From Bacteroidetes bacterium 24-39-8 (GTDB lineage Bacteria > Bacteroidota > Bacteroidia > Chitinophagales > Chitinophagaceae), in the NCBI GenBank assembly GCA_002256765.1, contig NCHJ01000009.1, positions 1-42,656 on the forward strand: a stretch of DNA of 42,656 nucleotides, written 5' to 3'. Numbering within the stretch: the stretch's first letter is position 1; each line of letters begins with the position of its first letter. Below are positions 9,928 through 33,251 of this stretch, one piece after another. Made by a program: the position numbers and the translations under genes. The notes under the pieces were generated by a model. It searched no databases and was not told the DNA's origin. It saw only the letters and a program-made list of their open reading frames with translations.

Positions 9928-9948
9928 ATCTAAAACTTTACGATTGAA

Positions 9949-11150: not shown

Positions 11151-11180
11151 GGCCGCAAGTATTTAAAAAGCAGGCCTTCC

Positions 11181-12212: not shown

Positions 12213-12225
12213 AAAAATCATGACT

Positions 12226-12243
12226 CAAGATAGAACAGGATGG
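12226..12243 (+). promoter_or_regulatory. Degenerate RhaR-type operator upstream of GH105
   Basis: CAAGATAGAACAGGATGG matches the GH31 and GH105 operator copies at 14 of 18 positions and points toward the GH105 gene, 85 bp before its ATG. The second half-site (ACAGGATGG) is intact. The same DNA also contributes one arm (AACAGG, 12234-12239) of a possible hairpin with CCTGTT 11 bp later, followed by a T-rich run, so a weak terminator after rhaR is an alternative reading. Confidence 0.4.
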
Positions 12244-12328
12244 TTTTGGACCTGTTTTGTTGTTGTTTTAAGGATAAGATGCAGCAAGCATTTTATGAAC
12301 TATTATTCTGCACACAAACGATTGCCAT

Positions 12329-13681
12329 ATGAAGAGAAAAATTCTCCCGCTATTATTATTTTCAGGATTATCCTTAAGTGTTTGTGCACAACAAAAACAA
12401 ACAACCAGCAATGATGTAACAACACCCCTTCACTTGTTACAACCAGATTATCCTACACCCTATGGGGCACCCACAAACGCACAAATCAAAACCGTTCTAG
12501 ATAGGGTATTCCATTATTTAGACAGCAACACACCTGCGGCAATAGTCAATAAAAAAACTGGAGAAATTATTCAAGGCATGCCCTTCCCTGATAGCAATAT
12601 CATAGTCAAGCCTGGTCAGTTTAGATTAACCAGTTATGAGTGGGGTGTAACTTATGCCGCCATGTTAAACGCAAGTCTTGCCACGGGCGATGAAAAATAT
12701 GCCAACTATACCAAGGAGCGCTTGCAATTCTTAGCTAAAATGACAGCAGGTTTTAGGAAAAACTTAGATGCATTCCCAACTACTACGAATCCTCTAAAAC
12801 AAGTCTTGACCCCAAAAGCTTTGGACGATGGTGGTGCTGTTTGTGCCGCTATGATTAAGGCCCTGCCATTATGCAAAGATCAAGACCTGAGACCCTTGAT
12901 TAACCGTTATATAGAATTTATTAGTAAGGAAGAATTCAGGTTAAAAGATGGTACACTAGCTAGAAACAGACCTTTGAAAAATACCATTTGGTTAGACGAT
13001 ATGTTTATGGGCATTCCTGCACTAGCGCAAATGGGTAAACTCACTGGCAACAAAGCTTATACAGATGACGCAGTAAAACAGTTCCTGCAGTTTTCAAAGA
13101 GAATGTTTAATCCCCAATTAAATGTATACATGCATGGTTGGGTTGAAAGCATGGAAGAACATCCAGAATTTCATTGGGCAAGGGCCAATGGATGGGCTTT
13201 GTTAGCAACAGAAGAATTACTAGACGTTCTACCTCTTAATCATCCACAAAGGGCAAACATTTTGGCTATCTTAAAAAAACATATCAAGGGTCTCACCAGT
13301 TATCAATCTGGCACTGGATTTTGGCACCAATTATTAGATAGAACAGATAGCTATTTAGAAACATCGGCCACTGCCATTTATTCTTATGGTATTTCGCATG
13401 CCATTAATCAAGGATGGATTGACGCCAAAACTTATGGACCTGCTGCTATCTTGGCTTGGAATGCAGTAGCCACCAAGGTAAATGCACAGGGACAGGTAGA
13501 GGGAACCTGTGTTGGAACAGGAATGGCTTTTGATCCTGCCTTCTATTATCATAGACCCATTAATCCATTTGCTGCACATGGATATGGCCCAACCATTATG
13601 GCTGGATCAGAGCTCATTCAAATGCTTAAAAAACATGCATTTGGCATAAATGATAGTGCTTCTCAATTATTAGAAAAATAA
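12329..13681 (+). CDS. Unsaturated rhamnogalacturonyl/galacturonyl hydrolase (GH105), secreted
   Basis: A protein of 450 residues with a signal peptide (about 20 residues, MKRKILPLLLFSGLSLSVCAQ) and an (alpha/alpha)6-barrel of the GH88/GH105 type. WLDDMFMGIP at about residue 224 carries the aspartates expected at the active site, and HWARANGWALLATEELL is the second hallmark stretch. GH105 enzymes remove the 4,5-unsaturated galacturonate left at the non-reducing end by pectate or rhamnogalacturonan lyases. It lies 116 bp after rhaR and 4 bp before the acetylesterase gene. The gap holds a degenerate RhaR-type site. A second GH105 is encoded at 32038-33171. Confidence 0.88.
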   Translation: MKRKILPLLLFSGLSLSVCAQQKQTTSNDVTTPLHLLQPDYPTPYGAPTNAQIKTVLDRVFHYLDSNTPAAIVNKKTGEIIQGMPFPDSNIIVKPGQFRLTSYEWGVTYAAMLNASLATGDEKYANYTKERLQFLAKMTAGFRKNLDAFPTTTNPLKQVLTPKALDDGGAVCAAMIKALPLCKDQDLRPLINRYIEFISKEEFRLKDGTLARNRPLKNTIWLDDMFMGIPALAQMGKLTGNKAYTDDAVKQFLQFSKRMFNPQLNVYMHGWVESMEEHPEFHWARANGWALLATEELLDVLPLNHPQRANILAILKKHIKGLTSYQSGTGFWHQLLDRTDSYLETSATAIYSYGISHAINQGWIDAKTYGPAAILAWNAVATKVNAQGQVEGTCVGTGMAFDPAFYYHRPINPFAAHGYGPTIMAGSELIQMLKKHAFGINDSASQLLEK

Positions 13682-13685
13682 ACAC

Positions 13686-15050
13686 ATGCAACTTAAACAT
13701 AGATTTTTAACCATCCTTTTGCTTGGCGTTTTTGGAACTGGGTTTGCGCAATCCAATAGCAGTAATACCATGCTTTTTGATTTTGGAAATGGAAAAACAG
13801 CCAAGGGATATACCAAAGTTGGATCCAATACTGTTTTCAATTATCAAACTGGCTTTGGTTTTACTGGGGTAGCTCCCATTGTTAGCGTTGACAGGGGTGG
13901 TAAAGATTTGTTGAGAGCCGATTATTGCATCAGTGAAAAGCCTTTTTATTTTTCAGTAAAATTACCTGAAGGCAATTATGATGTGACTTTGATTTTAGGA
14001 GACAAAAACGATACTAGTTTAACAACCATTAGAGCAGAAAGCAGGCGTTTGATGGCTGAAAATATTCATACTAATCAAGGTCAATTTGAAACTGTAAAAA
14101 TTACCGTACATATTCGTGATAGCATTATTAGAAATGCCAAGGGCGATTCTTTAACCAAGGTAAAATTGAAATCTAGGGTTGGGGTTTCTGAATCTGACTA
14201 CCTTCACTGGGACAATTTACTCACACTAGAATTCAACAACAAAGCGGCCAAAGTTTGTGCTGTTGAAATTAGACCTAATACCCAAGCTACAACCCTGTTC
14301 TTAGCAGGCAATTCTACTGTTGTAGACCAAGACCGAGAACCTTGGGCTAGTTGGGGACAAATGATTCCAAGGTTTTTCCAACCGGGTCTAGTGGCTGTTG
14401 CAAACTATGCTGAATCAGGAGAAACACTAAATAGTTTCTGGGGAGAAAGAAGGTTAGAGAAGATTTTGAGTCTGATGAAAAAAGGAGACTATCTCTTTAT
14501 AGAATTTGCGCATAACGACCAGAAAATAAAAGGCCCAGGCGTTGGTGCTTTCACTACTTATAAAGACATGATTCGCAAATTTATTGTGGCTGCAAGAGCC
14601 AAGGACGGTATTCCTTTTTTAGTGACTTCCATGAATAGAAGAAGTTTTGATTCTCTTGGTCAAATTAAAAATACCCTAGGCGATTTTCCTGAAGCCATGC
14701 GTCAAATGGCTAAGGAAGAAAATTTAGCCATGATTGATATGAATGCAGTAAGCAAAGTCCTGTATGAAGCTTGGGGGCCAACCCTTTCCAAAAAAGCATT
14801 TGTGCATTATCCAGCCAACAGTTTTCCTGGTCAAACAACGGCTTTGAGTGATGATACCCATTACAATACTTTTGGGGCTTATGAATTGGCTAAATGCATT
14901 GTGCAATCTTTAAAAGATCAGGACCATCCTTTGGCCAAAATGCTTTTGCCTAATTTGCCCACATTCAACCCTGCAAAACCAGATTCACCAGAGCAATTTT
15001 ATTGGCCCATGAGTACAAGAGTTTCTGTATCAAAGCCAGATGGCAATTAA
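13686..15050 (+). CDS. Rhamnogalacturonan acetylesterase-like SGNH hydrolase with N-terminal beta-domain
   Basis: A protein of 454 residues. A signal peptide ends near GFAQ (residue 22). Residues about 25-195 form a beta-sandwich domain of the type often attached to pectin acetylesterases (LFDFGNGKTAKGYTKV). The SGNH esterase core follows: FLAGNSTVVDQ with the nucleophilic serine, NYAESGET with the oxyanion glycine, FAHNDQK with the asparagine, and DDTHYNTFGAYELA with the Asp-His pair. It should remove acetyl groups from rhamnogalacturonan outside the cytoplasm. It starts 4 bp after GH105 and its end overlaps the convergent GH31 gene by 4 bp. A shorter esterase of the same type is at 38318-39115. 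Confidence 0.85.
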   Translation: MQLKHRFLTILLLGVFGTGFAQSNSSNTMLFDFGNGKTAKGYTKVGSNTVFNYQTGFGFTGVAPIVSVDRGGKDLLRADYCISEKPFYFSVKLPEGNYDVTLILGDKNDTSLTTIRAESRRLMAENIHTNQGQFETVKITVHIRDSIIRNAKGDSLTKVKLKSRVGVSESDYLHWDNLLTLEFNNKAAKVCAVEIRPNTQATTLFLAGNSTVVDQDREPWASWGQMIPRFFQPGLVAVANYAESGETLNSFWGERRLEKILSLMKKGDYLFIEFAHNDQKIKGPGVGAFTTYKDMIRKFIVAARAKDGIPFLVTSMNRRSFDSLGQIKNTLGDFPEAMRQMAKEENLAMIDMNAVSKVLYEAWGPTLSKKAFVHYPANSFPGQTTALSDDTHYNTFGAYELAKCIVQSLKDQDHPLAKMLLPNLPTFNPAKPDSPEQFYWPMSTRVSVSKPDGN

Positions 15051-17610: not shown

Positions 17611-19158
17611 TTATAATCCACTTAAGGCCTTGATTAAGATGCGTAAGCTCCAGAAAATGACAAGAGAGCCCACAGCAATAAACATGGTTTTAACGGGTAA
17701 CTTTCCTGAAAGTCTGGCTGCCAAAGGTGCTGCCACCAAGCCCCCGATAATTAAGCCAGCAATAATCTGCCAGTGGCTAATTCCTAACATGGTGAAAAAG
17801 GTAAGTGCACTAGCAAGGGTTACAAAAAATTCAGTGATACTTACCGTGCCAATGACAAATCTTGGGGTCCTACCTTTTGCAATTAGGGTACTGGTTACCA
17901 AGGGGCCCCAACCACCGCCTCCAAATGAGTCTAAAAATCCACCAGCACCTGCCAACCAACCAGCGTTTTTCACTTTCTGAGGTTTCTTGTTTTTCTTAAA
18001 AGCTGCATAAAAAATACGCAAGCCCAATAAAAGGGTATATGCGGCTAAGATGGGTCTAATATAATTGGCGTATTCATTTCCTAAGACAGACAATAAATAA
18101 GCTCCGCCAACTGCACCAAGAATACCAGGAATCAACAAGACTTTGAATAATTTTTTATTCACGTTTCCAAATCTGTAATGACTATATCCGGATGCGCCAC
18201 TGGAAAACATTTCAGCCGTATGAATACTACCGCTAATAGCAGGTAGATTTACTCCCTGTGAAAGTAAGATAGTAGTACAAGTAACACCATAACCCATGCC
18301 CAATGCACCGTCAACCATTTGAGCTAAAAAACCTGCAAAAATCATCCAATAAAAACTATTATCAACAAAGGTTGGAATGGCACGCACCCCTTTAAGAATA
18401 TCATTAAATGGAATATAGGTGAGAATAAAATAGCCCACAAACATGAAGAAAAAAGCAAAGACAAATTTGGAAGCAATATTTTTCCAACGTTTCTCACTGA
18501 TGGCTATTTCATCTGCTTCATCATCAACCAAACCCTTTGTAAGTTCATTGAGTTGTTTGACTTTTGAACTAAAATCTCCTTTCAAGGTTTTGCGAACAGC
18601 AGACATATTGTCCAATAATTCATCTAATTCATTGGGTAATGATTCCTGAAAAAGCTCTTTGAGTCTTTTGGCAATAGTGGGAGATTTTCCATTGGTTGAA
18701 ATAGCAATTTTTAAATTCCCCTTGGTTACAATAGAGCCCAAATAAAAATCACAGAGCTCTGGTTTATCAGCAACATTCACCAAAAGACCTGCTGCTTTGG
18801 CATCAATCCGTATGATTTCACTTAAGGGAATATCATTCACCGCAACAACTACTAATTCTGCTCCTGTTAAATCAGAAAGATGATAGTCTTTTTCAATGAC
18901 TGTTAACCCTTGGTATTGGGTTTGTAGCTCCCAAATATTTGGATCAACTAGTGATGCCACTACCCTGATTTTAGTGTCAGGTGCATTGTTTAATAAGGCT
19001 TGTAATTTCTCCAAACCTACTTTCCCTGCGCCAATTACCAAGACTTCTAAAGATTCTAGTTTTAAGAAAACAGGGAAAAGCCTGTTTCCCCCCGGAATGG
19101 CTTTTCCCTTATTTTCATTTTCAATTGATAGCGAATCTATATCTGATGATTGGACCAA
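17611..19158 (-). CDS. Precorrin-2 dehydrogenase/sirohydrochlorin ferrochelatase fused to TauE/SafE transporter
   Basis: A fusion of 515 residues. Residues about 25-210 match the N-terminal half of CysG/Met8: FPVFLKLESLEVLVIGAGKVG is an NAD-binding loop, and ISTNGKSPTIAKRLKELF is the conserved chelatase/dimerisation stretch. These steps oxidise precorrin-2 and insert iron to give siroheme. Residues about 230-515 form a polytopic TauE/SafE (TSUP) domain with GALGMGYGVTCT and GGGGWGPLVTS repeats, a family that moves sulfite, sulfate or thiosulfate. The start is a TTG; an in-frame stop lies two codons upstream and no ATG is near. It is last in the sulfur operon, with its own promoter and a shared operator motif upstream. 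Confidence 0.88.
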   Translation of the reverse strand: MVQSSDIDSLSIENENKGKAIPGGNRLFPVFLKLESLEVLVIGAGKVGLEKLQALLNNAPDTKIRVVASLVDPNIWELQTQYQGLTVIEKDYHLSDLTGAELVVVAVNDIPLSEIIRIDAKAAGLLVNVADKPELCDFYLGSIVTKGNLKIAISTNGKSPTIAKRLKELFQESLPNELDELLDNMSAVRKTLKGDFSSKVKQLNELTKGLVDDEADEIAISEKRWKNIASKFVFAFFFMFVGYFILTYIPFNDILKGVRAIPTFVDNSFYWMIFAGFLAQMVDGALGMGYGVTCTTILLSQGVNLPAISGSIHTAEMFSSGASGYSHYRFGNVNKKLFKVLLIPGILGAVGGAYLLSVLGNEYANYIRPILAAYTLLLGLRIFYAAFKKNKKPQKVKNAGWLAGAGGFLDSFGGGGWGPLVTSTLIAKGRTPRFVIGTVSITEFFVTLASALTFFTMLGISHWQIIAGLIIGGLVAAPLAARLSGKLPVKTMFIAVGSLVIFWSLRILIKALSGL

Positions 19159-19182
19159 TGGTTATTGCTTTCTTGAATGCTG

Positions 19183-19190
19183 CAAAAATA
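19183..19190 (-). promoter_or_regulatory. Promoter of the siroheme synthase-TauE fusion gene
   Basis: The minus strand reads TATTTTTG, an exact TAnnTTTG -7 box. A TTTG -33 element is at 19213-19216 with a 22-bp spacer, inside the operator at 19210-19224. Transcription would start near 19176, 18 bases before the TTG start codon. This internal promoter could uncouple the last gene from the rest of the operon. Confidence 0.55.
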
Positions 19191-19209
19191 AGATAAAAAC
19201 TCATTAATC

Positions 19210-19224
19210 CTACAAACTTAGTAG
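19210..19224. promoter_or_regulatory. Sulfur-operon dyad CTACA-N5-AGTAG
   Basis: An inverted repeat CTACA AACTT AGTAG, one mismatch from a perfect CTACT-N5-AGTAG dyad, with the right half extended to AGTAGACT (19220-19227). The same element stands at 27036-27050, 31914-31928 and 31970-31984, always in a control region of the sulfate-assimilation operon. It overlaps the -33 element, as a repressor site would. Confidence 0.55.
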
Positions 19225-19227
19225 ACT

Positions 19228-20223
19228 TTATATTTTGATAGTTGCAATCCAGTCTTTGGCATGTCTAGCTGCATAAGAAATAATACAATCGGCCCCTGCC
19301 CTTTTTAAAGAAGTCCAGATTTCTAGATGTGCTTGACTCCTTTCTACCAAACCCTGGCTTGCCAATAATTCTAGTGATTGATACTCACCACTAACATGAT
19401 AAGCTACCAAAGGGAATTTAGTTTCCTGTTTAATAGTTTGAATGATATCTAAATAAGGCAAAGCGGGTTTTACCATCACCAAATCAGCCCCTTCTTCAAT
19501 ATCCCTGATGGTAGATAGTAATCCATCCTGTGCATTGTAAGCTGAAAACTGATAGGTTTTCCTGTCTTTCAGGATGGGATTATTTCCGGGACTTGATTTA
19601 CAAGCATCTCTAAAAGGGCCATAGAACTGAGAACTAAACTTGGCAGAATAACTCATGATGGCAATATGATCAAAACCATTTTCATCCAAGGCATTTCTAA
19701 TGGCAGCAATTCTTCCGTCCATCATATCGCTTGGTGCAATACAATCTGCACCCGCTTTGGCCAATGCTAGCGCATACTGAGCAAGAACTGTAACAGACTC
19801 ATGATTCAAGACGGCTGTTTGGGTTTCATTGAGCAAACCACAATGTCCATGTTGGGTATAAGCACACAAACAGGTATCAGCAGCTATCCAAACCTGGTTG
19901 CCAAATTTCTTTTTAATGGCTTGTAGTGCTTTGATAACAAAACCAAAATCAAAATCAGTATTTGATTTGTGTAGGGGCACTGGGAATAATAAAAACTTGC
20001 TGATTCCTTGTTCAAGATCCAAGGCAATTTGATCCAGAACAGATGCAATTGTATCAGCAGCAATTTCATTCAGCGATGCCATGGGGGTTCTTTCTTGTAC
20101 AGACTCATCCACAAATAAGGGTTGGATAAAATCACGATGATTCACATATACATTTGCTACCAGTTCTCTTATATGTTCATTGGCCCTTATGCGCCTTCTG
20201 TTACTGGTATATCTTGTCTCCAT
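19228..20223 (-). CDS. hemB: Porphobilinogen synthase (5-aminolevulinate dehydratase)
   Basis: A cytoplasmic enzyme of 331 residues, normal HemB length, joining two 5-aminolevulinates into porphobilinogen. The zinc-site cysteines are in ADTCLCAYTQHGHCG; the two active-site lysines are in MSYSAKFSSQFYGPFR and MVKPALPYLDII. The N-terminus ([22 protein letters not shown]) fits the family, which supports the start at 20223 even though it overlaps the hemC-hemD gene by 37 bp. It lies in the sulfur operon rather than with other heme genes, pointing to siroheme supply. Confidence 0.95.
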   Translation of the reverse strand: METRYTSNRRRIRANEHIRELVANVYVNHRDFIQPLFVDESVQERTPMASLNEIAADTIASVLDQIALDLEQGISKFLLFPVPLHKSNTDFDFGFVIKALQAIKKKFGNQVWIAADTCLCAYTQHGHCGLLNETQTAVLNHESVTVLAQYALALAKAGADCIAPSDMMDGRIAAIRNALDENGFDHIAIMSYSAKFSSQFYGPFRDACKSSPGNNPILKDRKTYQFSAYNAQDGLLSTIRDIEEGADLVMVKPALPYLDIIQTIKQETKFPLVAYHVSGEYQSLELLASQGLVERSQAHLEIWTSLKRAGADCIISYAARHAKDWIATIKI

Positions 20224-21722
20224 GATTGGAATGCTTTGATAGTGGGAAAAATAAGTGGATTCAATCCTAGTCCTTGTAATCTAGTGGCCGTTTTACCAGA
20301 AGGGCATGCATGAATAACACCTGGTTTTACATAAGGTGAACCAACCAGCCATTGCTGATAGCTGGACCAAAAAACCAAATCTACTTTACCAATGGTTGCT
20401 ATTAAGTTAGTATCTAAACTAGGATGTAAACAGTAGGTTGCCGTTGCATGCCATCCTTCAGACAACCACCCTACTACACTATTTTGATTGGTCACAATAC
20501 AACACTGTGTTTTATCTAATTGAACCAAGGAAGTTTCAAATAAGGGCAATAAGGAATCCAATCCCAAACCATCGGCGGAGCCCTCTACCCAAATACCTTT
20601 TTGGGCTAGTGCTAACCAAGTTCTGCTACCTGCAGCCCATACCCTTTTCCTTTGACATTGCTTTATTAATGCAATTGAATGGATGGATTTGTGTGACGCA
20701 ACAAAAACAGCTGTGGTTGAAGCTGGAATTTTTCCATGGTCCAAATTGGTTTCTGTGTAAAAGGATCGCATATGGTCCGTACCACTAAAAACTTCAATGC
20801 TTGCCGGGTTTAAATCAATAGGCTGTTTCCACTCCGTAAATGGTTCCAATTGCTGATTTAATCCCGATGCATAAGTAAAGGAACAATGTGCCAAATCCTT
20901 ATGAAATACACCAAAGGGCCTTGAACAACCATAACCATATTTTTCTGCAAAAACTCTTTCTGCTTGTACGGCATTGGTATGTTCCATACTTGCTATACTT
21001 TCTAGCATACTAATTGCATCTTGATTGGCTTGATTGGTTTCTACCACAATGGCACCTTGACCAGCAGCAGGCGGGCATTCAAACAAGGGCAAGAACATTA
21101 GCTTTTTTTTGCTCAATAGTGCTTCTAATGTTGCTTTTGCTGGCTCATACCCTAATAACCTATTTAATCCTGCAGCAGCAAGAATAATCCCGTCATATTC
21201 CCCGGATTCATCTAGTTTTCGTAATCGCCCATCTACATTTCCCCTAATTGGAATGGCTTCTATCTTTATGGGATATTCACTAAGTTGTGGTAATGCTTTC
21301 TGTAAAAAATCAGTAGCCATTAGTGTTCTCCTGGGAGAAGATGTGCCAATAACAATAGTTTTACCCGTAGCTAGTTTGTCAAGAATATCTTCCTTAAAAA
21401 TGGCAATATCACGAATATCATTTCTGTCAATAATTCGGTAAAAGCTATTTTCAAAAAAAGCATCCCCACTTACATCTTTCATAGAATGAACGGCAAAGTC
21501 AGCAATGCCATTCCTTAAGTCTTCTTGAATCTCAGCGGTAAAAAAATCTTTACCCTCCACTAAGTGTAAGGGAGTACTTTGCTCTCGGTCACCCTTGGTT
21601 TCTTTGACAATAGTATTTAATACCAAATCTGGAAAATAAGCTTTAACCTTTTGGCAAAATAATTCCACTTGCGCTAGCGACAACCAAGAACCCCTACAAA
21701 CAATATTGAATTCCTTTCTCAT
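20187..21722 (-). CDS. hemC: Hydroxymethylbilane synthase fused to uroporphyrinogen-III synthase
   Basis: A protein of 511 residues with two enzymes in series. Residues about 5-300 are HemC: HSMKDV with the catalytic aspartate (D83), [32 protein letters not shown] and the dipyrromethane-cofactor cysteine C266 in [10 protein letters not shown]. Residues about 318-505 are HemD-like ([18 protein letters not shown], then [13 protein letters not shown]). Together they make uroporphyrinogen III from porphobilinogen. The HemC part departs from the common family pattern at several sites, such as GTSSPRR instead of GTSSLRR. The start overlaps the ALA synthase stop as ATGA, and the end overlaps hemB by 37 bp. 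HemD proteins are poorly conserved, so that half is the less certain. Confidence 0.87.
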
Positions 21723-22960
21723 ATTGTCATGGATTTAGTTGCTGACCCTAGTGCTTGCACAGGAAATTGGGACAATGCTTCTGCTAAAGCATCAGCCAAT
21801 TGCTCCATTTCTGTTTGCCCATGTTTGGTGGTGATGGTCACCCTTAAACATGCTTTACCCTTGGGTACTGTTGGATAATTTATGGGTTGCAGATAAATAC
21901 CTAATTGATATAGTAAGTAGTCTGCTATTTGTTTACAACGCAATTCATCCCCAATGATAATGGGAGTAATATGGGTTGGATTATTTAAAAAAGGAATCTT
22001 TTTAGTCAATAACAATTGGCGTAAATGATAGACTTTCTCAAAATAATTTTCCCTTATCTTTTTTGATTGCATGAGGATCTCAATACTCTTGGTTGCTGCC
22101 GCGCAGATAGCTGGCGGAAGAGAAGTGGTGAAAATAAAACCTGAACCAAAACTTCTAATTGCGTCTACCAATATAGCAGAACCAGCAATATAGCCCCCTA
22201 ATACACCAAACCCCTTTGCTAAAGTACCATTGATGATGTCAATACCATTTTGCAAACCAAGCGCTTCAGATAAACCGCCACCAGTATTCCCATATAAACC
22301 AACAGCATGCACTTCATCCAAATAAGTCAATGCTTGGTACTTTTTTGCAAGCAGGATCATTTCTTCCATAGGAGCAACTGTTCCGCTCATGGAATACACA
22401 GATTCAAATACCAAGATCTTTGGTTGATCAATGGGTAAGGATTGCAAAATCTCTTCCAATGCTTTTAGGTCATTGTGCGGAAAAACCTTTTTCTCATTAC
22501 CACTAGCTTTAATCCCTTCAATAATAGAAGCATGATTGTCATGATCAGAAATGAATACAGCAGTTGGTATTAATTTACCAAGTGTAGCCAAAGCTGTTAG
22601 ATTGGCTAAATAGGCACTTCCAAAAACCAAGGCCTTTTCTTTTTGGTGCAATTGAGCCAATATGTTTTCAAGGCTTCTATGAAAATTGGTAGTGCCAGAA
22701 ATATTTCTGGTACCCCCACTCCCAGTTCCACTTCTATGCGTAACAAAACTTAACCTGCTGATTACTTCTTCATGAACACTCATGGCTAGGTAATCATTAC
22801 TACAGCAGTTCACCGCTTTTCGCTTTACGCCTTCTGCGTCTTCAAAATAGAAATGCGGAAAATGTTGGGCAGACTTGTTAACGTCCAAAAAATAACGGTA
22901 GGTACCCTTCTCTTTGAGATGGTCAAGTTTGTTAGCTAATATTTGTTGATAGTTGATCAT
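21719..22960 (-). CDS. hemA: 5-aminolevulinate synthase (C4/Shemin type)
   Basis: A PLP enzyme of 413 residues that condenses glycine with succinyl-CoA into 5-aminolevulinate. It aligns by eye with Rhodobacter capsulatus ALA synthase almost without gaps. The residues I recall as succinyl-CoA contacts there (R21, T83, N85, I86) and the PLP lysine K248 map at a constant +1 offset to R22, T84, N86, I87 and K249. Typical stretches are [64 protein letters not shown] and [10 protein letters not shown]. BioF, KBL and CqsA relatives lack this combination. The ATG at 22960 overlaps the cysI stop as ATGA. It is unusual because Bacteroidota normally make ALA from glutamyl-tRNA. Confidence 0.9.
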
Positions 22961-24630
22961 GCTGTAACCCAATTTTTCCGGATAGCAAAATCACCAAAGG
23001 TTTCATCCAATACTCTTTCCGCGCTAAAGGATTCAAACAAACCATCTAATGTTGCTAGTATGGCTGCTTCCTCCAAATTTTCTTGGTAAATTTTATTCAA
23101 ACGAGCACCCTGTCTGTCTCCACCCAAGTGCAGATTGTATTTACCTGCTGCAGTTCCAACAAACCCAATTTCTGCCACATAAGGTCTGGCGCAACCATTG
23201 GGGCAACCCGTCATTCTTATGACAATGGCTTCTTTGTCTAACTGATGTTTTTCTAATAGAGGTTCTATCTTAGTAATTAGAGAAGGCAAATAGCGTTGTG
23301 CCTCGGCTAATGCTAAGGGACAAGTAGGCAATGCCACACAGGCCATGGAATTTTTGCGAATGGCAGAACTTCCTTCAGTATGCTGGATAATCCCAAATTT
23401 TTCTAAAATGGCATTGACAGCCTCCTTGTTTTCAGGAGCTATTTCGCTTAGGATTAAGTTTTGAGAGCAGGTAAAACGGAAATTGGCAAAACCAGATTTG
23501 GCTATTTCCCACATGGCTGTTTTAAGAGGTAGATGTTCTTCATCCAATACCCTTCCATTCTCAACCAACACGGTATAATACCATAAACCTTGCTGATTTT
23601 TTTGCCATCCAAAATGGTCTACGCGTTTGGTAAAAACAACTGGCTTGGCTGGTTCCAAATCAAACCCAATTCTTCTTTCTAATTCTTTTTTGAACCAATC
23701 TACACCAACCTTATCAACCGTATATTTTAATCGAGACATTTTACGGTCAGACCTATTTCCATAGTCTCTTTGAATGGTTAACACTTCATATACGGCTTTG
23801 AGTGTTTTCTCTTCTCCAGCAATAAAACCAATCACCGTTCCTAGCCTTGCATAAGTATCAGGATTACCATGGGTAGTAGCTAATCCACCTCCAATGGCAA
23901 TATTAAATCCAAGCAATTGCCCTTCTTCAATAATAGCTATCAACCCAATATCATTGGCAAATACATCCACGTCATTATTGGGTGGTATGGCAATGGCAAT
24001 TTTGAATTTCCTTGGCAAATACCTGTCTTGGTATAAGGGATCTTCCTCTTCTTTTCTATCTAAGATTTTCTCTTCATCCAACCAGATTTCATAATAAGCT
24101 TTTGTCTTGGGCATCAACAATTCACTGATCTTGTCTGCATAAGCAAAGACCTGTGCGTGAATGGGTGATTCATTTGGATGCGAGCTGCAAAGCACATTCC
24201 TATTAATATCGCCACAAGTAGCAATAGAATCCAATTTGGCTTTATTAAAAGCTTGGATGGTTGGTTTAATATGACTTTTGATCAATCCATGCAATTGCAA
24301 GGTTTGTCTACTGGTAATTTTAATCACCCCAGTTGCGTGTTCACCCGCAATCTCATGGGTAGCCAACCACTGTGCGGGTGTTACAAATCCCCCGGGTAAA
24401 CGCAGACGAATCATAAAAGAATACAACCTGTCCAGTTTTTTAGCAGCGCGTTCTTCTCTTCTATCTCGGTCATCTTGTTGATACATACCGTGAAACTTAA
24501 TCACGGCTTGGTCGTCTTCCCTAATAGCACCGGTTAATTGGTCTCCCAAACTTTCTTGAATGGTTCCGCGTAAACCTTGGCTAGCAGTTTTAATGGCTTC
24601 TATTACAGATAATTTTTCTTTTGCTGACAT
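22957..24630 (-). CDS. cysI: Assimilatory sulfite reductase hemoprotein
   Basis: A protein of 557 residues, close to CysI length. It contains two nitrite/sulfite reductase ferredoxin-like half-domains. Cysteines for the coupled [4Fe-4S]-siroheme centre are in CVALPTC (C-x5-C) and CPNGC (C-x3-C), and basic substrate residues lie in [10 protein letters not shown] and [11 protein letters not shown]. It reduces sulfite to sulfide with electrons from the CysJ part of the preceding gene. It lies 28 bp after the cobA-cysJ fusion gene and overlaps ALA synthase by 4 bp, so the siroheme user and the first siroheme-precursor enzyme are translationally coupled. Confidence 0.95.
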
Positions 24631-24658
24631 GCTATGGTAGATGGCTTTAATAATTGGA

Positions 24659-27031
24659 TTAATACACGTCTTTGTGGTAACGATGATTGTCTTTTAATTC
24701 GTTGAAATAAGCAGTTGATGCTTCGTTGGTTTTATTCCCATGAACCATAATCACTTCTATCAAAGCATTTTCAACATCTGTACTCATGGGATCTTTTTTA
24801 CCGCAGATATATACATAGGCACCCCCTTCCAACCACAGGTATAATTCAGCACCTTGCTCTTTGATTCGGTGTTGTACATAAATCTTTTCTCTTTGATCAC
24901 GAGAAAAAGCAAGGTCTACCTTGTTCAATACACCCGTAGCATACCAGTTTTGAATTTCAGTTTGGTACAAGAAATCAGAGGCAAAATGTTGTTCACCAAA
25001 AAACAACCAATTTCTACCAGTTGCTCCAACAGCTTCACGTTCATACAAGAATCCCCTGAATGCGGCAATACCAGTTCCAGGACCAATCATGATCACATCC
25101 TTGTCTTGAGCAGGTAGTTTGAAACGCTTGTTCTTTTGAACAAAAAATGACAATTGGTCACCTACTTGATGTTTGCTTAAAAAGTCAGAGCAACGTCCAT
25201 ATTTTTTTTCTTCTCCAATCCAAAACACGTCTCTTGCTACGGTAATATGTACTTCTTCACCTTGCGCTGCAGGGGAAGAGGAAACGGTATAAAGTCTGGG
25301 AGACTGTGCAATTAAAACATTCAAAATTGCTTCTAATGTCTCTTTTGACTTAATGGAAAATTTTTGAAGTATTCCTAACAAATCCAAACTAGCACCTTTT
25401 AAATCTTGTCCTATAATAGCACCAATTCTTTCTAATACTTTTTCTGATAGATTAGCAATATTGAGTTTAGTATCTAATAATTCAAAGAGAGAAGAAGGCA
25501 ATGATTTATATGTAAATTCTGTAGCACTGTCAATGCCAGTTACTGATAAAATAGCTGCAACGGTTGCAGGATCATTTTTGGGTACAACCCCAATTGAATC
25601 ACCCGACTCATAGGTTAAACCTTCTGCAGCTATTTCAATATGCCAGGTTTCTTTTTTAGAACCCCGATCATTCAAATTAAAATGGGTGAGTATTTCTCCC
25701 TGATAAATGGTTTTGCCTGCTGGTTTGGCAACGGACTTTACCGCAGCTTCACTAGGTTTTGCCTGAACAACATTTGTTGATTGATCAGCAAGAAAAACTT
25801 GATCTAATACTTTATTAAACCATTGCTCTGCTTCTGTTTGATAATCCAAATCACATTTTTGAATGGGTACAATCCTATTACTTCCTAATTTTTCAAATTG
25901 GCTATCTATGTCTTCTCCTGCCTTGCAAAACAAAGGATAGGAGGTATCGCCAAGGGCCAATACACTATATTTTAATTGGGGCAATTGAAAACCACTGCGA
26001 TGAATATGGTCATAGAATTTTTTAGCGGCAGGTGGTGGTTCTCCCTCACCCTGCGTGCTAATGACCGTTACAAAATATTCCTCTTTGGTCAAATCACTCA
26101 AACGATATTGATCCAAACTAACCAGTTTGGTGAGTAGTTTTTTCTGTTTGGCAATAGCTACCAAATCAGTTGCCAACTTTTTAGAATTACCCGTTTCTGT
26201 GCCATAGGCGATGGTAATTTTTAGGGGAGATTCCAGACGATTATTGATGGGTTTGAAATAATGTTCCGCACTAGCTTCAGAATTTTTCCACTGAAATCGA
26301 TGGTGTAAGGAGACTACTTTGCCAATGATGACCAATGAAGGAGATAAGAATAATTGATGGCTTAATTGCGCTTTAAACAAACCTAACTGGCAAGTATAAA
26401 CCCGTTGCAATGGTGTGGTTGCTTGTTCTATGACAGCTAATGGTATGTTTGAATCAATCCCATGTAATAACAATTGATCTACCAAATGATCCAAACTGGT
26501 AGAAGACATATAGAAAACTAAGGTATCATTGGTTTTTGCAAGTTCTTGATAAGTTTCGGCAGGTAAATCATTTGAATAATTGGTTAGAAACCTAACTGAT
26601 GTACTATAACCTCTTGCTGTTAATGGAATTCCTGCAAAAGCAGATGCTCCAGAAGCAGCCGTAATGCCAGGAACAATTTCAAATGGAATGTCATGTTGAA
26701 CCAAGGTCTCCAACTCATCCAAAATATTGGAAAAAAAAGCAGTATCTCCACCCTTTAGTCTGACAACTAATTTTCCTTCCAAAGCCTGCTCAAGTATTAA
26801 CTGATTAATAGTTTCCTGTGAAGTAGAATCAGTTTTTAGGTTTTGTTTTCCAACATACATAATGGGAATACCCACCCTTACATGACTATCTAAAATGGCT
26901 TGACTCACCAAACGATCTGTAATCACCACATCTGCTTGCTGCAAATACCTTGCAGCCTTTAGCGTCAATAGTTCAGGATCACCACAACCGGCCCCTGCTA
27001 AAATTACTTTTCCATTTTGTAACATAGTCAT
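24659..27031 (-). CDS. cysJ: Uroporphyrinogen-III C-methyltransferase fused to sulfite reductase flavoprotein
   Basis: A fusion of 790 residues. Residues about 5-245 are a SUMT/CobA tetrapyrrole methylase (GAGCGDPELLTLKAARYL, VVRLKGGDTAFFSN, PGITAASGASAFAGIPLTARG), making precorrin-2 from uroporphyrinogen III. Residues about 270-410 are a flavodoxin domain (IAYGTETGNSKKLA, STQGEGEPP, LGDTSYPLFC). Residues about 445-790 are the FAD/NADPH reductase part of CysJ (LYTVSSSP for FAD, GPGTGIAAFRGFLYER for NADPH, YICGKKDPMSTDV at the end). One polypeptide thus makes the siroheme precursor and feeds electrons to the siroheme enzyme. ATGs at 27031 and 27025 are both possible starts. A perfect operator dyad ends 5 bp upstream of the first. 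Confidence 0.93.
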   Translation of the reverse strand: MTMLQNGKVILAGAGCGDPELLTLKAARYLQQADVVITDRLVSQAILDSHVRVGIPIMYVGKQNLKTDSTSQETINQLILEQALEGKLVVRLKGGDTAFFSNILDELETLVQHDIPFEIVPGITAASGASAFAGIPLTARGYSTSVRFLTNYSNDLPAETYQELAKTNDTLVFYMSSTSLDHLVDQLLLHGIDSNIPLAVIEQATTPLQRVYTCQLGLFKAQLSHQLFLSPSLVIIGKVVSLHHRFQWKNSEASAEHYFKPINNRLESPLKITIAYGTETGNSKKLATDLVAIAKQKKLLTKLVSLDQYRLSDLTKEEYFVTVISTQGEGEPPPAAKKFYDHIHRSGFQLPQLKYSVLALGDTSYPLFCKAGEDIDSQFEKLGSNRIVPIQKCDLDYQTEAEQWFNKVLDQVFLADQSTNVVQAKPSEAAVKSVAKPAGKTIYQGEILTHFNLNDRGSKKETWHIEIAAEGLTYESGDSIGVVPKNDPATVAAILSVTGIDSATEFTYKSLPSSLFELLDTKLNIANLSEKVLERIGAIIGQDLKGASLDLLGILQKFSIKSKETLEAILNVLIAQSPRLYTVSSSPAAQGEEVHITVARDVFWIGEEKKYGRCSDFLSKHQVGDQLSFFVQKNKRFKLPAQDKDVIMIGPGTGIAAFRGFLYEREAVGATGRNWLFFGEQHFASDFLYQTEIQNWYATGVLNKVDLAFSRDQREKIYVQHRIKEQGAELYLWLEGGAYVYICGKKDPMSTDVENALIEVIMVHGNKTNEASTAYFNELKDNHRYHKDVY

Positions 27032-27096: not shown

Positions 27097-28008
27097 TTAA
27101 AACAATCCTTCAATGGATAAATAGCGCTCTCCTGTATCGTAATTAAACGTGAGCACTTTGGAACCAACGGGAATATCTCCCAGTTTTTGAGCAACAGCTG
27201 CAAGGGATGCTCCTGTAGATATACCTACTAAAATTCCTTCTTGCTTGGCCAATTCCTGCGCATATTTAAAAGCATTGTCCTTGCTTACAGTGATAATGCC
27301 ATCCAATATTGCGGTGTTTAAAATAGAGGGTACAAATCCAGCTCCAATTCCTTGCAATGGATGTGGGCCCGGAGCACCACCACTCAATACCGGAGAAAGT
27401 TCAGGCTCTACTGCAAATACTTTCAAATTGGGAAAAGCAGCTTTTAATACTTCGGCCACACCAGTGATATGACCACCAGTACCAACACCTGTAATCAGGT
27501 AATCCAATCCGTCAGGAAAATCATTGAGAATTTCTTGTGCGGTAGTTTTTCTATGGATCTCAGTATTAGCAGGATTATCAAATTGTTGGGGCATCCAACT
27601 ATTGGGCGTTTCTGCTACTAATTCCTTGGCTTTTTCAATGGCACCTTTCATGCCTTTCTCTCTTGGTGTAAGTACAAATTCTGCACCATACAAAGACATT
27701 AATCTTCTACGTTCAATGCTCATACTCTCTGGCATGACCAAGATAATTTTATAACCTTTTACAGCAGCTACTAAAGCAAGCCCAATTCCGGTGTTTCCAG
27801 AAGTGGGTTCAATAATCACGCTGTCTTTATTTAATAAGCCTTTTTGTTCCGCGTCTTCAATCATGGCCAACGCAATCCTGTCTTTGATACTAGAACCAGG
27901 ATTGGTTTTTTCTAGCTTCATCCAAACCTCGTGGTTAGATCCAAAAATTTTGTTCAAACGCACATGTGGCGTGTTGCCAATGGTTTCTAAGATATTATTT
28001 GCCTTCAT
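27097..28008 (-). CDS. cysK: Cysteine synthase A (O-acetylserine sulfhydrylase)
   Basis: A PLP enzyme of 303 residues that combines O-acetylserine with sulfide to form cysteine. The PLP lysine is in [11 protein letters not shown], the substrate loop is [12 protein letters not shown] and the phosphate-binding loop is [28 protein letters not shown] is another CysK stretch. It lies 32 bp after cysE, its metabolic partner and likely complex partner. It is the final step of the pathway encoded by this operon. Confidence 0.96.
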
Positions 28009-28040: not shown

Positions 28041-28874
28041 TTAGATGACAAAATTCAATGCATCTATCACTGGGTGTTTGTCCTTAACGGCTACTTCACT
28101 TTTATGATAAACAATAGATTGTGGTGCTACACTATAGGTAAGCCACACATTACCTCCAATAACTGAGTCATGACCAATAATGGTATCACCGCCTAATATG
28201 GTGGCACCTGAATAAATAATCACATTGTCTTCAATGGTTGGATGCCGCTTGGTACTAGCTTTATCCTTACTTACATTCAATGCCCCAAGGGTAACACCTT
28301 GATAGATCTTTACATTGTTGCCAATAATGGTTGTTTCTCCAATAACAATTCCAGTTCCGTGATCAATAAAAAAAGAACTCCCAATACTTGCTCCAGGATG
28401 AATGTCAATCCCTGTTTTCCCATGGGCATATTCTGTAAAAATCCTTGGCAATATTTTCACGCCTAGCTTCCATAACAAATTAGATATCCGATAAATAGCC
28501 GTAGCATAGAATCCGGGATAAGCCACCAATACTTCTTCTACAGAAACCGCTGCTGGATCAAATTGCAAAATGGTATTGGCATCCTTAATCAGTTCTTCAT
28601 GCAATTCAGGAATAGCATCAAAAAAATCCTCTGTTACCAATTCAACTTTTCCTGACTCAGGCAATACATCATACACCAAAGCACTAAAATGATCTTTCAA
28701 TTGTTCAAACTCTTTCTCCAAATCAGCAACCTTCTTGTGTTTCACCGTTTTGGGTAAAAACAAAAATTCAAAGAGCTTATCAATAAAATCCTCTGCAGAC
28801 TCCTTATCTGGAAAGAAGGAAAACTGCTTGCTATTTTGTTGGAACAATCTTGATATAAATGCTTCTTGTGACAT
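28041..28874 (-). CDS. cysE: Serine O-acetyltransferase
   Basis: A protein of 277 residues. An alpha-helical N-terminal SAT domain is followed by a left-handed beta-helix of hexapeptide repeats from about residue 155 ([41 protein letters not shown]). It acetylates serine with acetyl-CoA. The sequence ends in DALNFVI; a C-terminal isoleucine is what CysE proteins use to dock into the CysK active site, and cysK is the next gene. It starts 6 bp after cysN. Confidence 0.94.
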
Positions 28875-28880: not shown

Positions 28881-30122
28881 TTATTGAATCATGCAAGCAC
28901 CTACGGTGACATGACTGGTTTCATCAATTAAAATGGCTCCCCCATTTACTCGTAAGTTTTGATATGAATCATAAGGAATAGGAGCTGCCGTTTTAATAGT
29001 GGCTTTAATAATATCATTGAGCTGCACTTTTTCAGGTGCTTCTTCTTGCAATAAGGAATTCACATTCACTTTATACTGAACCTCTTTCACTACCGCACGC
29101 ACCAACCTACTATTGATTTGTAATTGGTACTTACTTCCTACTTGTAATGGTTTACTATCCATCCAACATAACAAGACCTCTAATTCATTAGACACTTGTG
29201 GTGTATTATCTGTAAGGGTAATCAGGTCTCCCCTACTTACGTCTACATCATCGGTTAAATGCAATACCGCACTTTGAGGTGCAAATGCTTCCACCACTTC
29301 AACACCGCCCACTTCAATGGCAGCAATACTGGTGTTGATTCCAGAGGGTTGTATGGTCACAACATCGCCCTTGCGATAAATACCACTGACAATTTTACCA
29401 GCATAGCCCCTATAATCGTGCAAAGCTTCTGTTTGTGGTCTAATCACGAATTGTACAGGAAATCTGGCATCTGTGAGATTGATATCATTGTGAATGGGCA
29501 CTTCTTCTAGTATCTGCAACAAGGGCTTACCATCGTACCAACTAAAATGGGTAGAGGGCTCCACAATATTGTCTCCATTTAAGGCACTTATAGGAATATA
29601 AGTCACATTTTTTAAACCCAAGGTTTGCGCAACCGCTGCGTAATCAATCAAAATATTATGATACACATCCTGAGAAAAATTGACCAAGTCCATTTTATTC
29701 ACTGCCACAATAACACGGGGAATATTTAGCAAAGAAGCAATGATACTATGTCTGCGCGTTTGTTCCACCACGCCATGTCTGGCATCAATTAAAATAATGG
29801 CTAGGTCTGAATTTGAAGCACCAGTAACCATGTTACGGGTATATTGAATATGACCAGGAGCGTCTGCAATGATGAATTTTCTTTTGGGTGTAGAGAAATA
29901 CTTATAAGCCACGTCAATGGTAATCCCTTGCTCTCTTTCCGCTCTTAACCCATCTGTTAGTAAGGCCAAATCAATCTCGCCATCTTCACGATTCTTGGTT
30001 TGTTTTTCAATGGCTTCCAGCTGGTCAATCATAATTGACTTACTATCGTATAACAAGCGCCCAATTAAAGTGCTCTTGCCATCGTCTACACTACCCGCTG
30101 TGATAAATCTTAAAATATCCAT
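28881..30122 (-). CDS. cysN: Sulfate adenylyltransferase subunit 1 (GTPase)
   Basis: An elongation-factor-like GTPase of 413 residues that drives ATP sulfurylase. GTP motifs are GSVDDGKSTLIGRLLYD (P-loop), DAPGHIQYTRNM and NKMDLV. Beta-barrel domains follow. There is no fused CysC (APS kinase) domain, in line with an APS-using reductase next door. I begin at the ATG at 30122, where the family sequence begins (MDILRFITAGSVDDG); the longer frame would run into cysD. The gap to the cysD stop is then 28 bp. Confidence 0.94.
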   Translation of the reverse strand: MDILRFITAGSVDDGKSTLIGRLLYDSKSIMIDQLEAIEKQTKNREDGEIDLALLTDGLRAEREQGITIDVAYKYFSTPKRKFIIADAPGHIQYTRNMVTGASNSDLAIILIDARHGVVEQTRRHSIIASLLNIPRVIVAVNKMDLVNFSQDVYHNILIDYAAVAQTLGLKNVTYIPISALNGDNIVEPSTHFSWYDGKPLLQILEEVPIHNDINLTDARFPVQFVIRPQTEALHDYRGYAGKIVSGIYRKGDVVTIQPSGINTSIAAIEVGGVEVVEAFAPQSAVLHLTDDVDVSRGDLITLTDNTPQVSNELEVLLCWMDSKPLQVGSKYQLQINSRLVRAVVKEVQYKVNVNSLLQEEAPEKVQLNDIIKATIKTAAPIPYDSYQNLRVNGGAILIDETSHVTVGACMIQ

Positions 30123-30150: not shown

Positions 30151-31059
30151 TTAAAAATATCCGTTCTTTTTACGGTCTTCCATTGCAGCTTCACTTACTT
30201 TATCATCAATCCTTGTCTCCCCTCTTTCGCTTGTTTTAGTGGCAATGATTTCAGAAATAATATCGTCAATATTTGACGCTGAAGACTCTACGGCTGCAGT
30301 ACAAGTCATGTCTCCTACAGTTCTATATCGCACCCGCTTGGTACTAATTTTATCCGTTGGCTCTAAATCAACAAATTCAGAAACAGCCACCAATTGACCT
30401 TCATATTCTAGCACTTCACGCTCATGCGCAAAATAGATAGAGGGCAATTCAATTTTTTCTCTTCTAATATAGTTCCAGATATCCAACTCTGTCCAGTTGC
30501 TAATGGGGAAAGCCCTTACATTCTCGCCCTTATCAATCCTACCATTATAGGTGTTCCACAATTCAGGTCTTTGTAATTTGGGATTCCATTGTCCAAACTC
30601 ATCTCTCACAGAAAAAATTCTTTCCTTGGCCCTTGCTTTTTCTTCATCCCTTCTTGCTCCACCAATACATGCATCAAATTGAAATTCTTCAATGGTATCT
30701 AAAAGCGTATAAGTTTGTAAAGCATTTCTACTAGCAAACTTACCCTTGGGTTCGGTTAATTTTTTTGCCTGAATGGTATCGGCCACATGGCGCACAATCA
30801 GTTTTTCTCCAATAGATTCGGCCAATGCATCTCTATAGTCCAATGCTTCTTGAAAATTATGACCCGTATCAATATGCACCAACGGAAAAGGAAATTTTCC
30901 AGGTCTAAAGGCTTTTAAAGCCAAATGTACCAAGGTAATAGAATCCTTACCACCACTGAATAAGAGCGCGGGGCGTTCAAATTGTCCTGCCACTTCTCTA
31001 AAAATATGAATGGACTCCGATTCCAATTGATCCAAATAATTCAATCTATAATTACTCAT
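30151..31059 (-). CDS. cysD: Sulfate adenylyltransferase subunit 2
   Basis: A protein of 302 residues that forms adenosine-5'-phosphosulfate from ATP and sulfate together with CysN. It has the PP-loop ATPase motif LLFSGGKDSITLVHLALKAF near residue 30, then HIDTGHNF and a conserved ARAKERIFSVRDEFGQW region. The ATG at 31059 (MSNYRLNYLDQL) is the family start; upstream codons of the open frame overlap cysH. The gap to cysH is 25 bp. Confidence 0.96.
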   Translation of the reverse strand: MSNYRLNYLDQLESESIHIFREVAGQFERPALLFSGGKDSITLVHLALKAFRPGKFPFPLVHIDTGHNFQEALDYRDALAESIGEKLIVRHVADTIQAKKLTEPKGKFASRNALQTYTLLDTIEEFQFDACIGGARRDEEKARAKERIFSVRDEFGQWNPKLQRPELWNTYNGRIDKGENVRAFPISNWTELDIWNYIRREKIELPSIYFAHEREVLEYEGQLVAVSEFVDLEPTDKISTKRVRYRTVGDMTCTAAVESSASNIDDIISEIIATKTSERGETRIDDKVSEAAMEDRKKNGYF

Positions 31060-31084: not shown

Positions 31085-31801
31085 TTACTTGTGTTCGTGT
31101 AATCCGCATTCCTTTTTATTGGCGTCTTCCCACCACCATCTTCCTGCCCTAAAATCCTCTCCCGGTTGAATGGCCCTAGTACAAGGAGCACAACCAATAC
31201 TTACAAAGCCTTGATTGTGCAAGGGATTATAAGGTATATTATTTATTGCAATAAATTCAGCTACCTGATCATTGGACCAGTCTAAAATGGGATGGTATTT
31301 GATAATCTGATTACCCTCATCCCACTCTATTTTATCCAAACCCTGTCTAGCCGCAGAATGGGCAGATCGTAATCCGGTAATCCAGATTTGATTTCCAGCC
31401 AATGCCCTTTTCAAAGGTTCCACTTTGCGAATATGACAACAAGACTTTCTTAAATCAACTGACTCATAAAAGGCATTGGGGCCATTGGTTTCCACAAATG
31501 ACTCCAAAGCATCCTGATTGGGATAATAAGCTTTAATAGGAATTTGATACCGTTCTAAAGTGCTATTCCAAACACTATAGGTTTCTGCAAACAACCTACC
31601 GGTATCTAAGGTAAAAATTTGAATGGGTAATTGTTGAGATGCAATCAAGTGCGTGATTACCTGATCTTCAAAACTGAAACTAGAGGAAAAGACCACCGCA
31701 TTAGGAAATTCATGGGATATTGTTTTTAAAAACGGGGCTGGTTCCAATTCTTTGGACCGGGTAATCAGACTTGAAATATGTTGATCTGTTTGGGTATTCA
31801 T
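31085..31801 (-). CDS. cysH: Adenylylsulfate (APS) reductase, iron-sulfur type
   Basis: A protein of 238 residues reducing activated sulfate to sulfite. The core has FSSSFSFEDQVITHL and TLDTGRLFAETY. The cysteine pairs CC (in KSCCHIRKVEPL) and CxxC (in IGCAPCTRAIQPG) form the CC-to-CxxC set that binds a [4Fe-4S] cluster in APS reductases, and the catalytic cysteine is in KKECGLH near the end. PAPS reductases lack the cluster cysteines, and no CysC or CysQ gene is present, so APS is the likely substrate. A TTG at 31837 would add 12 residues; the ATG at 31801 is preferred. It is the first gene of the sulfate-assimilation operon. Confidence 0.92.
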   Translation of the reverse strand: MNTQTDQHISSLITRSKELEPAPFLKTISHEFPNAVVFSSSFSFEDQVITHLIASQQLPIQIFTLDTGRLFAETYSVWNSTLERYQIPIKAYYPNQDALESFVETNGPNAFYESVDLRKSCCHIRKVEPLKRALAGNQIWITGLRSAHSAARQGLDKIEWDEGNQIIKYHPILDWSNDQVAEFIAINNIPYNPLHNQGFVSIGCAPCTRAIQPGEDFRAGRWWWEDANKKECGLHEHK

Positions 31802-31913
31802 GGTATTCTGTTGACTTTGGAAAGCAGGTTTAAGCAAGTTAGCTACAACAGCAGCATTTGCAACAGAAGGGCATAGATATTGATGTTAAAATCCGTTTCA
31901 TACTTGTATTAGT

Positions 31914-33171: not shown

Positions 33172-33218
33172 ATATGACAGCATTTGAATTTGCATGATAC
33201 ATCAAAAAACAGGAAGAC

Positions 33219-33236
33219 TTATCCTGTAGCATCCTG
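33219..33236 (-). promoter_or_regulatory. Putative RhaR operator upstream of GH105
   Basis: The minus strand reads CAGGATGCTACAGGATAA, with the repeated hexamer CAGGAT at a 10-bp period. Its first 16 positions differ from the GH31 site only once. It stands in the 80-bp gap between this GH105 and the gene before it, hinting that GH105 has its own promoter. Confidence 0.55.
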
Positions 33237-33251
33237 AAAACTAAAAGATGG

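Follow-up and report, generated by a model that had tools for sequence, protein, structure and literature searches.

Why does a sulfite reductase operon carry the genes for the whole of siroheme synthesis, and do the cells that carry it also make heme? The question is raised by a window of 42,656 nucleotides (the whole stretch of DNA analysed here) from Bacteroidetes bacterium 24-39-8, a member of the Chitinophagaceae. Beside the sulfite reductase gene cysI, the window carries genes for 5-aminolevulinate synthase (ALAS), HemC, HemD and HemB, together with uroporphyrinogen-III methyltransferase (SUMT, CobA) and precorrin-2 dehydrogenase (PC2DH) domains. These genes very probably constitute a dedicated siroheme-biosynthesis cassette, and most of the carriers examined appear to make tetrapyrroles for siroheme alone. 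ALAS, HemCD and HemB are referred to below as the module.

Gene assignment and operon layout

Window genes were assigned by Pfam and NCBIfam profile scans of translated open reading frames (ORFs). Eleven genes form a single minus-strand run from cysH (31837) to PC2DH::TauE (17611), in the order cysH, cysD, cysN, cysE, cysK, cobA::cysJ, cysI, ALAS, hemC::hemD, hemB, PC2DH::TauE:

31085..31837, minus strand: cysH, PAPS/APS reductase, first operon gene (PF01507, 151 bits; start codon uncertain)
30151..31059, minus strand: cysD, sulfate adenylyltransferase small subunit (PF01507, 147 bits; start taken from relatives, which align from residue 47; the listed ORF begins at 31197)
28881..30122, minus strand: cysN, sulfate adenylyltransferase large subunit (TIGR02034, 531 bits, cut-off 336; start taken from relatives, which align from residue 25; the listed ORF begins at 30194)
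28041..28874, minus strand: cysE, serine O-acetyltransferase (TIGR01172, 162 bits, below the cut-off of 211)
27097..28008, minus strand: cysK, cysteine synthase (TIGR01139, 424 bits, cut-off 351)
24659..27031, minus strand: cobA::cysJ fusion of SUMT (residues 6-251; TIGR01469, 238 bits, cut-off 185) and sulfite reductase flavoprotein (residues 262-790; TIGR01931, 519 bits, below the cut-off of 668)
22957..24630, minus strand: cysI, siroheme-dependent sulfite reductase (TIGR02041, 760 bits, cut-off 757)
21719..22960, minus strand: ALAS, 5-aminolevulinate synthase (TIGR01821, 512 bits, cut-off 338.6; ATG at 22960; the listed ORF starts at TTG 22972)
20187..21722, minus strand: hemC::hemD fusion of hydroxymethylbilane synthase (residues 1-285; TIGR00212, 179 bits, cut-off 164, residues 6-277) and a uroporphyrinogen-III synthase-like half (residues 286-511)
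19228..20223, minus strand: hemB, porphobilinogen synthase of the module clade (PF00490, 375 bits; HemB tree)
17611..19158, minus strand: PC2DH::TauE, precorrin-2 dehydrogenase (probably also ferrochelatase) fused to a TauE/SafE membrane transporter (PF13241, NAD_binding_7; PF14824, Sirohm_synth_M; PF01925, TauE)

An initial annotation of this DNA had claimed that the complete path from glycine and succinyl-CoA to siroheme is encoded beside cysI, in a set beginning at cobA::cysJ, with three fusions and mostly overlapping junctions. The genes were found in their places by profile matches (weak for the hemD half), and the operon extends further up, to cysH at 31837. All three fusions were confirmed (cobA::cysJ, hemC::hemD and PC2DH::TauE); cobA and cysJ are unfused in the closest relatives showing both (L089/L116 and L119) and in G027 too. 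Neighbouring genes of the run are spaced by -37 to 69 bp. Three of the five junctions from cobA::cysJ onwards do overlap (cysI/ALAS by 4 bp, ALAS/hemCD by 4 bp and hemCD/hemB by 37 bp), but gaps of 28 bp and 69 bp separate cobA::cysJ from cysI and hemB from PC2DH. Spacers of 200 bp, to a GH88 gene, and of 95 bp, to a GH31-like gene (the latter named from sequence), set the run off from its neighbours, and it would probably be read as one transcript.

The ALAS score against TIGR01821 (512 bits vs 338.6) was compared with those of related models, all of which fell short (bioF 318 vs a cut-off of 426, kbl 291 vs 460, SPT 228 vs 500). A BioF/KBL/SPT paralogue was therefore rejected as an identity for this protein; two paralogues of that kind are encoded at other sites in the genome. 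Its top PDB matches were the ALAS structures 7x98, 5qqq and 2bwn. Among ALAS rows the motif TRNI, which we take to be the succinyl-CoA pocket, was present in 36 of 37, and GTLxK, presumably the motif of the pyridoxal phosphate lysine, in 34 of 37; both are invariant in the 22-row alignment. Judged by score and best solved matches, the window protein is a true 5-aminolevulinate synthase of the Shemin (C4) route. No relative of it was matched in a plasmid collection at E 1e-100.

HemC and HemB assignments were clear from profile matches. The PC2DH domain was aligned along its length with the siroheme synthase 1pjq (E 1.6e-13), and residue 104 of this CysG chain, which we assume to be its catalytic aspartate, was aligned to Asp131 of PC2DH::TauE. 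SUMT and precorrin-2 dehydrogenase domains, the pair that marks the siroheme pathway at gene level, are both present; iron insertion by the PC2DH domain is likely by analogy. Fusion of PC2DH to TauE occurs in 31 of 50 related loci and suggests a possible link of siroheme synthesis with sulfite handling at the membrane.

Conservation of the cassette

Genome contigs were scanned with the HemCD alignment; 219 stretches matched, with 141 relatives, and the best 80 were analysed. Fifty named loci (L116-L165) are of the window's kind, and 30 (L166-L195) match over the HemC half only. Neighbouring genes of the 50 loci were counted at any match of E 1e-8. HemC was present in 50, HemD in 49 (in one ORF with HemC in 48), HemB in 47 and ALAS in 46. 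Further genes were PC2DH (43), TauE (36, fused to PC2DH in 31), CobA (29), CysI (22) and NirA-like (16).

The initial annotation had proposed a survey of gene order in related genomes, and this found the cassette conserved as a unit, with a siroheme enzyme (CysI or NirA-like) near the module in 38 of the 50 loci. CysI, where present (22 loci), is always encoded on the same strand as the module, in 21 cases no more than 1.5 kb upstream of it. The NirA-like relatives (CysI match below 40% identity) stand beside the module in 16 loci showing no CysI, 14 of them on the opposite strand; those of L091 (outside the 50), L122 and L163 matched the NirA family best, at 202 to 255 bits, below the cut-off of 523. 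Most of the remaining 12 loci run into a contig end on one or both sides. Heme-gene loci (L055, L058-L063 and L112-L114) showed Cys, CobA, PC2DH, TauE or ALAS matches in 0 of 10. Judged by record titles, most hosts belong to Chitinophagaceae, other Chitinophagales or Sphingobacteriales or are unnamed Bacteroidetes; Cyclobacteriaceae (L122, L156), Saprospiraceae (L161, L163) and Kapaibacterium (L153) also occur. The cassette is thus a coherent unit in several Bacteroidota groups, usually beside the cell's siroheme enzyme.

Variants of the locus were also seen. ALAS, HemC and HemD lie within one 908-residue frame on a Saprospiraceae contig (L161:3377-6103). On a Ferruginibacter contig (L162:10075-11519) the HemC/HemD pair is spread over two frames and shares 59% identity with the window's pair in its best segment; it has neither ALAS nor HemB near it and is possibly a decaying copy. 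Near the module, a 741-residue NirA-like reductase with a HEPN match close to its C-terminus (L091:6729-8954), a 498-residue protein with a rubredoxin tail (L092:3430-4926) and a fusion of a molybdopterin oxidoreductase with a rubredoxin-reductase-like part (L096:5735-9286) were noted; the last two are possibly for nitrate assimilation. L088, the one relative scanned, has a gene for an Rrf2-type regulator close to the operon (CymR score 68 bits, below the cut-off of 195); none was noticed in the window. TonB-dependent receptors lie 3' of the module in L088 (2205-4799), L091 (14771-17338) and L097 (14665-17598) and inside it in G146 (L089:3602-6148), with none beside the window's module. The identity of all four scanned was confirmed; in the two scanned with siderophore and heme receptor models, scores were below cut-offs. 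Heme import by these receptors would be a guess.

HemB clade and agreement of gene distances

A HemB tree was built from 80 rows (74 different), of which 45 were module proteins, 20 ordinary proteins of the order and 15 from other phyla. All 45 module rows fell in one clade with support 100/100, apart from ordinary and other-phylum rows. Displacement of ordinary heme genes into the cys operon was rejected on this separate clade. Distances of ALAS, HemCD, HemB and CysI are in agreement with one another across 19 sets (r 0.82-0.95; Mantel p 0.001 for each). By path, the rows closest to the window's HemB are L116, L118 and L119 and then those from Cyclobacteriaceae, which suggests transfer of the cassette within the phylum, the forks there being partly open. 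Atypical composition was considered as a sign of recent transfer and rejected: GC content is uniform along the cys/siroheme run, and values for ALAS, hemCD and hemB (GC 38.6-39.6%, third-position GC 28.7-32.9%, vs 39.3% GC for the window) are inside the range of neighbouring genes.

Heme markers in ALAS-bearing genomes

Sampling the family evenly gave 294 genomes, of which 20, in 12 of 101 genera, have ALAS over the cut-off. With the addition of G027 and G035, 22 ALAS genomes were compared. Gene maps showed the complete ALAS-HemCD-HemB module in 18 (HemB is split into two frames in G084); the module of G274 is truncated in HemC by the contig end, and G027, G035 and G082 are without module HemCD and HemB.

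GlutR was found in three of the 22 (G027, G082, G196), HemE in four (the same and G107) and HemH in five (these four and G000, the window's own genome). None of the three markers was found in 17 of the 22, each listed as at least 90% complete, and 15 of these 17 have the complete module. The 17 genomes therefore fit the pattern of a heme auxotroph, if this is taken as a near-complete genome without GlutR, HemE and HemH; the window's own genome has HemH and is 86% complete. G146, the closest relative with a near-finished genome (6 contigs, 100% complete), showed no GlutR, HemE, HemH or ordinary HemB. Ordinary-type HemB was present in 2 of 20 ALAS genomes vs 203 of 274 others in the sample (Fisher p 1e-8; classed by score, shared ancestry not corrected). 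IBVUCB2 (G346), of a different genus of the family from the window's, came from lake samples, is >99% complete and has a 16S sequence 96% identical to that of Sediminibacterium salmoneum (PMC5604771).

Since GlutR, HemE and HemH were not found in these 17 genomes, the route there is the only tetrapyrrole synthesis detected and not a parallel line. The earlier description of a supply line independent of the general heme pathway is borne out as to the complete siroheme route in the operon, but it presupposes a heme pathway that most ALAS genomes do not show.

Predicted pathway

ALAS would condense glycine and succinyl-CoA to 5-aminolevulinate, which HemB, HemC and HemD would convert to uroporphyrinogen III. 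CobA, fused to CysJ, would then form precorrin-2, and the PC2DH domain would oxidise it and, by analogy with CysG, insert iron. The siroheme would be delivered to CysI, encoded in the same gene run. This order of reactions from glycine and succinyl-CoA to siroheme is that of the established pathway. Production on sulfur demand is plausible from the operon context and the Rrf2-type regulator of L088. A known RNA element in the window was considered and rejected, no Rfam match at gathering scores being found. Carriers without heme markers would import heme or go without.

Evidence against and alternative explanations

Several observations weigh against a cassette reserved for siroheme. At the gene level, they concern the HemD half. 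This half of the window protein (residues 286-511) matched no Pfam family even at E 10, and the NCBIfam scan of the whole HemCD protein gave no model for it. At E up to 10, HEM4 was matched by 11 of the 18 proteins in the family alignment, with 5.7e-6 as the best value; the window's own was not among them. A profile of the 18-member alignment of this half had no PDB match, and its comparison with ordinary HemD of the same family was not significant. Because 11 of 18 members match HEM4, and from its position in the fusion, the half is tentatively assigned as uroporphyrinogen-III synthase. At the level of loci, L133 and L162 show no siroheme enzyme over about 10 kb on both sides, and L137 has the module without ALAS. 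All 50 named loci are metagenome-assembled genomes or bins by title except L136, whose sequence was assembled from metagenomes according to its paper (PMC5604771).

Genomes outside the common pattern add to these points. The configurations of G027, G082, G035, G107, G196 and L137 are grouped under the label INTERMEDIATES. HemE is missing from 30 of the 37 genomes of the window's genus, and ALAS is present in only two of these 30 (G000, G035); HemE loss is thus mostly in genomes without ALAS, and the cassette is therefore not needed for heme-gene loss. No HemB of any kind was detected in 41 of 60 relatives. G027 has ALAS after cysI with a full heme cluster, and module HemCD and HemB were not seen. 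G082 likewise has a full heme cluster and no module HemCD or HemB; its ALAS and PC2DH::TauE neighbour cys genes and a NirA-like enzyme. Both sets occur in G196 (GlutR, HemE, HemH and two HemB), but its heme genes are all on one contig of a 440-contig draft, for which contamination is possible. G107 (83% complete) has the complete module with a rubredoxin-tailed protein upstream. On another locus (L112:954-4684) its hemH adjoins hemE directly, and after these come hemF (403 bits against a cut-off of 297) and a HemJ relative, whose 109 bits fall short of the cut-off. Neither GlutR nor ordinary HemB was found in G107, nor hemA, hemC, hemD or hemB among its late heme genes, which suggests that these would need feeding by the cassette. 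In G035, ALAS and PC2DH::TauE follow cysI, the old heme site is reduced to hemC, hemD and hemB, and no GlutR, HemE or HemH was found. We count G035 in favour of siroheme-only synthesis, since it seems to arrive at that state by a different route, with the old hemC, hemD and hemB kept for siroheme.

For the window's own genome there is a draft assembly of 3.40 Mb in 212 contigs, with a completeness of 86.3%. The initial annotation had looked to second copies of the heme genes as support for a separate siroheme supply. PF00490 found a single HemB, that of the module, which for hemB is the outcome that the initial annotation had named as refuting it; but GlutR and HemE were also not found in this assembly, yet hemH, hemJ and hemN are present. 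HemH is truncated at the start of contig C151; after it come a HemJ relative (98 bits against a cut-off of 138) and hemN (433 bits, cut-off 325). G027 belongs to the same genus and has a listed completeness of 100%; its hemH is divergent from hemA-hemC-hemD-hemE-hemB-hemL, and C151 shares gene order with this locus. When the G027 cluster and its far flank were compared with the window's genome, the only long match lay beyond the cluster, on contig C143, 128 bp before the contig end; the other three matches (25 to 153 bp) were inside the window's own hemB and hemCD. With both flanks of the old heme site at contig ends, hemA to hemL may be unassembled there or lost. Heme synthesis in this genome may accordingly be intact and partly unassembled, a further point on the opposing side.

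The module could be a general tetrapyrrole route that replaced older hemA, hemL, hemB, hemC and hemD and feeds both heme and siroheme. Such a role would suit the window's own genome, with its sole HemB beside late heme genes elsewhere, and G107, which has hemH, hemE, hemF and hemJ, only a module-type HemB and no GlutR found. It is set against 15 of the 18 complete-module genomes, which are without GlutR, HemE and HemH and hence show no heme branch to feed, and against the ten heme-gene loci, none beside cys genes; we regard it as unlikely. For the window's own genome, full parallel pathways are an alternative to which we give a little less than an even chance: an ordinary hemA-C-D-E-B-L cluster would serve heme, and the module siroheme. 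C151 starts in hemH and C143 ends at the far flank, and the missing genes could fit one gap; coexistence of the two sets is suggested by G196. However, G146, with its 6 contigs, has none of the markers and no ordinary HemB, and the window's assembly shows no GlutR, HemE or ordinary HemB. Siroheme might, finally, be converted to heme by the siroheme-dependent AhbABCD route, in which case carriers would not be heme auxotrophs. This would account for the missing HemE and HemH, and the available text of PMC10991733 places the route in archaea and some sulfate reducers; we consider it very improbable here.

A cassette dedicated to siroheme is retained as the preferred reading. Within the family a series can be drawn up from a heme cluster with ALAS (G027), both sets (G196), the module with late heme genes (G107) and old hemC, hemD and hemB (G035) to the 15 genomes with the module and no GlutR, HemE or HemH. 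We think it somewhat probable that a transferable siroheme cassette sustains assimilatory sulfite or nitrite reduction in Bacteroidota lineages that are giving up heme synthesis. Tetrapyrrole synthesis would there serve one cofactor and be begun by ALAS, with other members of the family carrying the GlutR route.

Flanking genes

On one flank of the run are rhamnose genes (window 4819-15050: RhaT, FGGY kinase, aldolase-dehydrogenase, GH88), and on the other pectin/rhamnogalacturonan genes (window 32038-42569: GH88, GH2, GDSL, rhamnogalacturonan lyase family 11, GH28).

Comparison with known systems

The cassette separates siroheme supply from heme supply genetically and suggests how a lineage can rely on outside heme yet keep sulfate and nitrate assimilation. 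Natural intermediates are available for studying pathway replacement. Metagenomic hemB, hemC and hemD genes need not, as a warning, mean a heme-making organism. No description of a full siroheme route in a sulfur operon was found by searches of an open-access library. The enzyme families are known; the new part is the full route with ALAS at a sulfite/nitrite reductase locus, in genomes without heme markers.

The Bacillus subtilis cysH operon contains the late siroheme genes, for SUMT, chelatase and dehydrogenase. In both operons siroheme genes are placed with the pathway that uses siroheme, but that of B. subtilis covers only the steps after uroporphyrinogen III, and the window's operon adds ALA synthesis, HemB, HemC and HemD. 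Clostridial and Desulfovibrio hemA/cysG/hemC/hemD/hemB/hemL clusters serve siroheme and corrinoids. They too group a full tetrapyrrole set that the host does not use for ordinary heme; unlike the present carriers, these hosts are anaerobes with the C5 route (GlutR/HemL), whereas the cassette has ALAS, occurs in Bacteroidota and stands at an assimilatory sulfite/nitrite reductase locus.

Methanogens, according to the available text of PMC8351635, make siroheme without protoheme synthesis. The likeness is in siroheme made while heme synthesis is absent; the difference is that they are archaea, and that ALAS and a cys-operon cassette are not mentioned in that text. Gram-negatives, apart from Alphaproteobacteria with their Shemin route, are described as users of the C5 route in the available parts of PMC10991733 and PMC11442138, and Table 1 of the former gives the Shemin route among bacteria only in Alphaproteobacteria. 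The ALAS described here thus belongs to a phylum not listed there as a Shemin user. Heme auxotrophy of aquatic bacteria was reported by Kim et al. 2021, as cited in PMC12381374, PMC11442138 and PMC10991733; among the auxotrophs named in the available text of PMC12381374 there are no Chitinophagaceae. The retained siroheme cassette, not mentioned in the available text of these citing papers, would set the present carriers apart from those bacteria, and the lack of heme synthesis in free-living aquatic lineages is the feature that they share.

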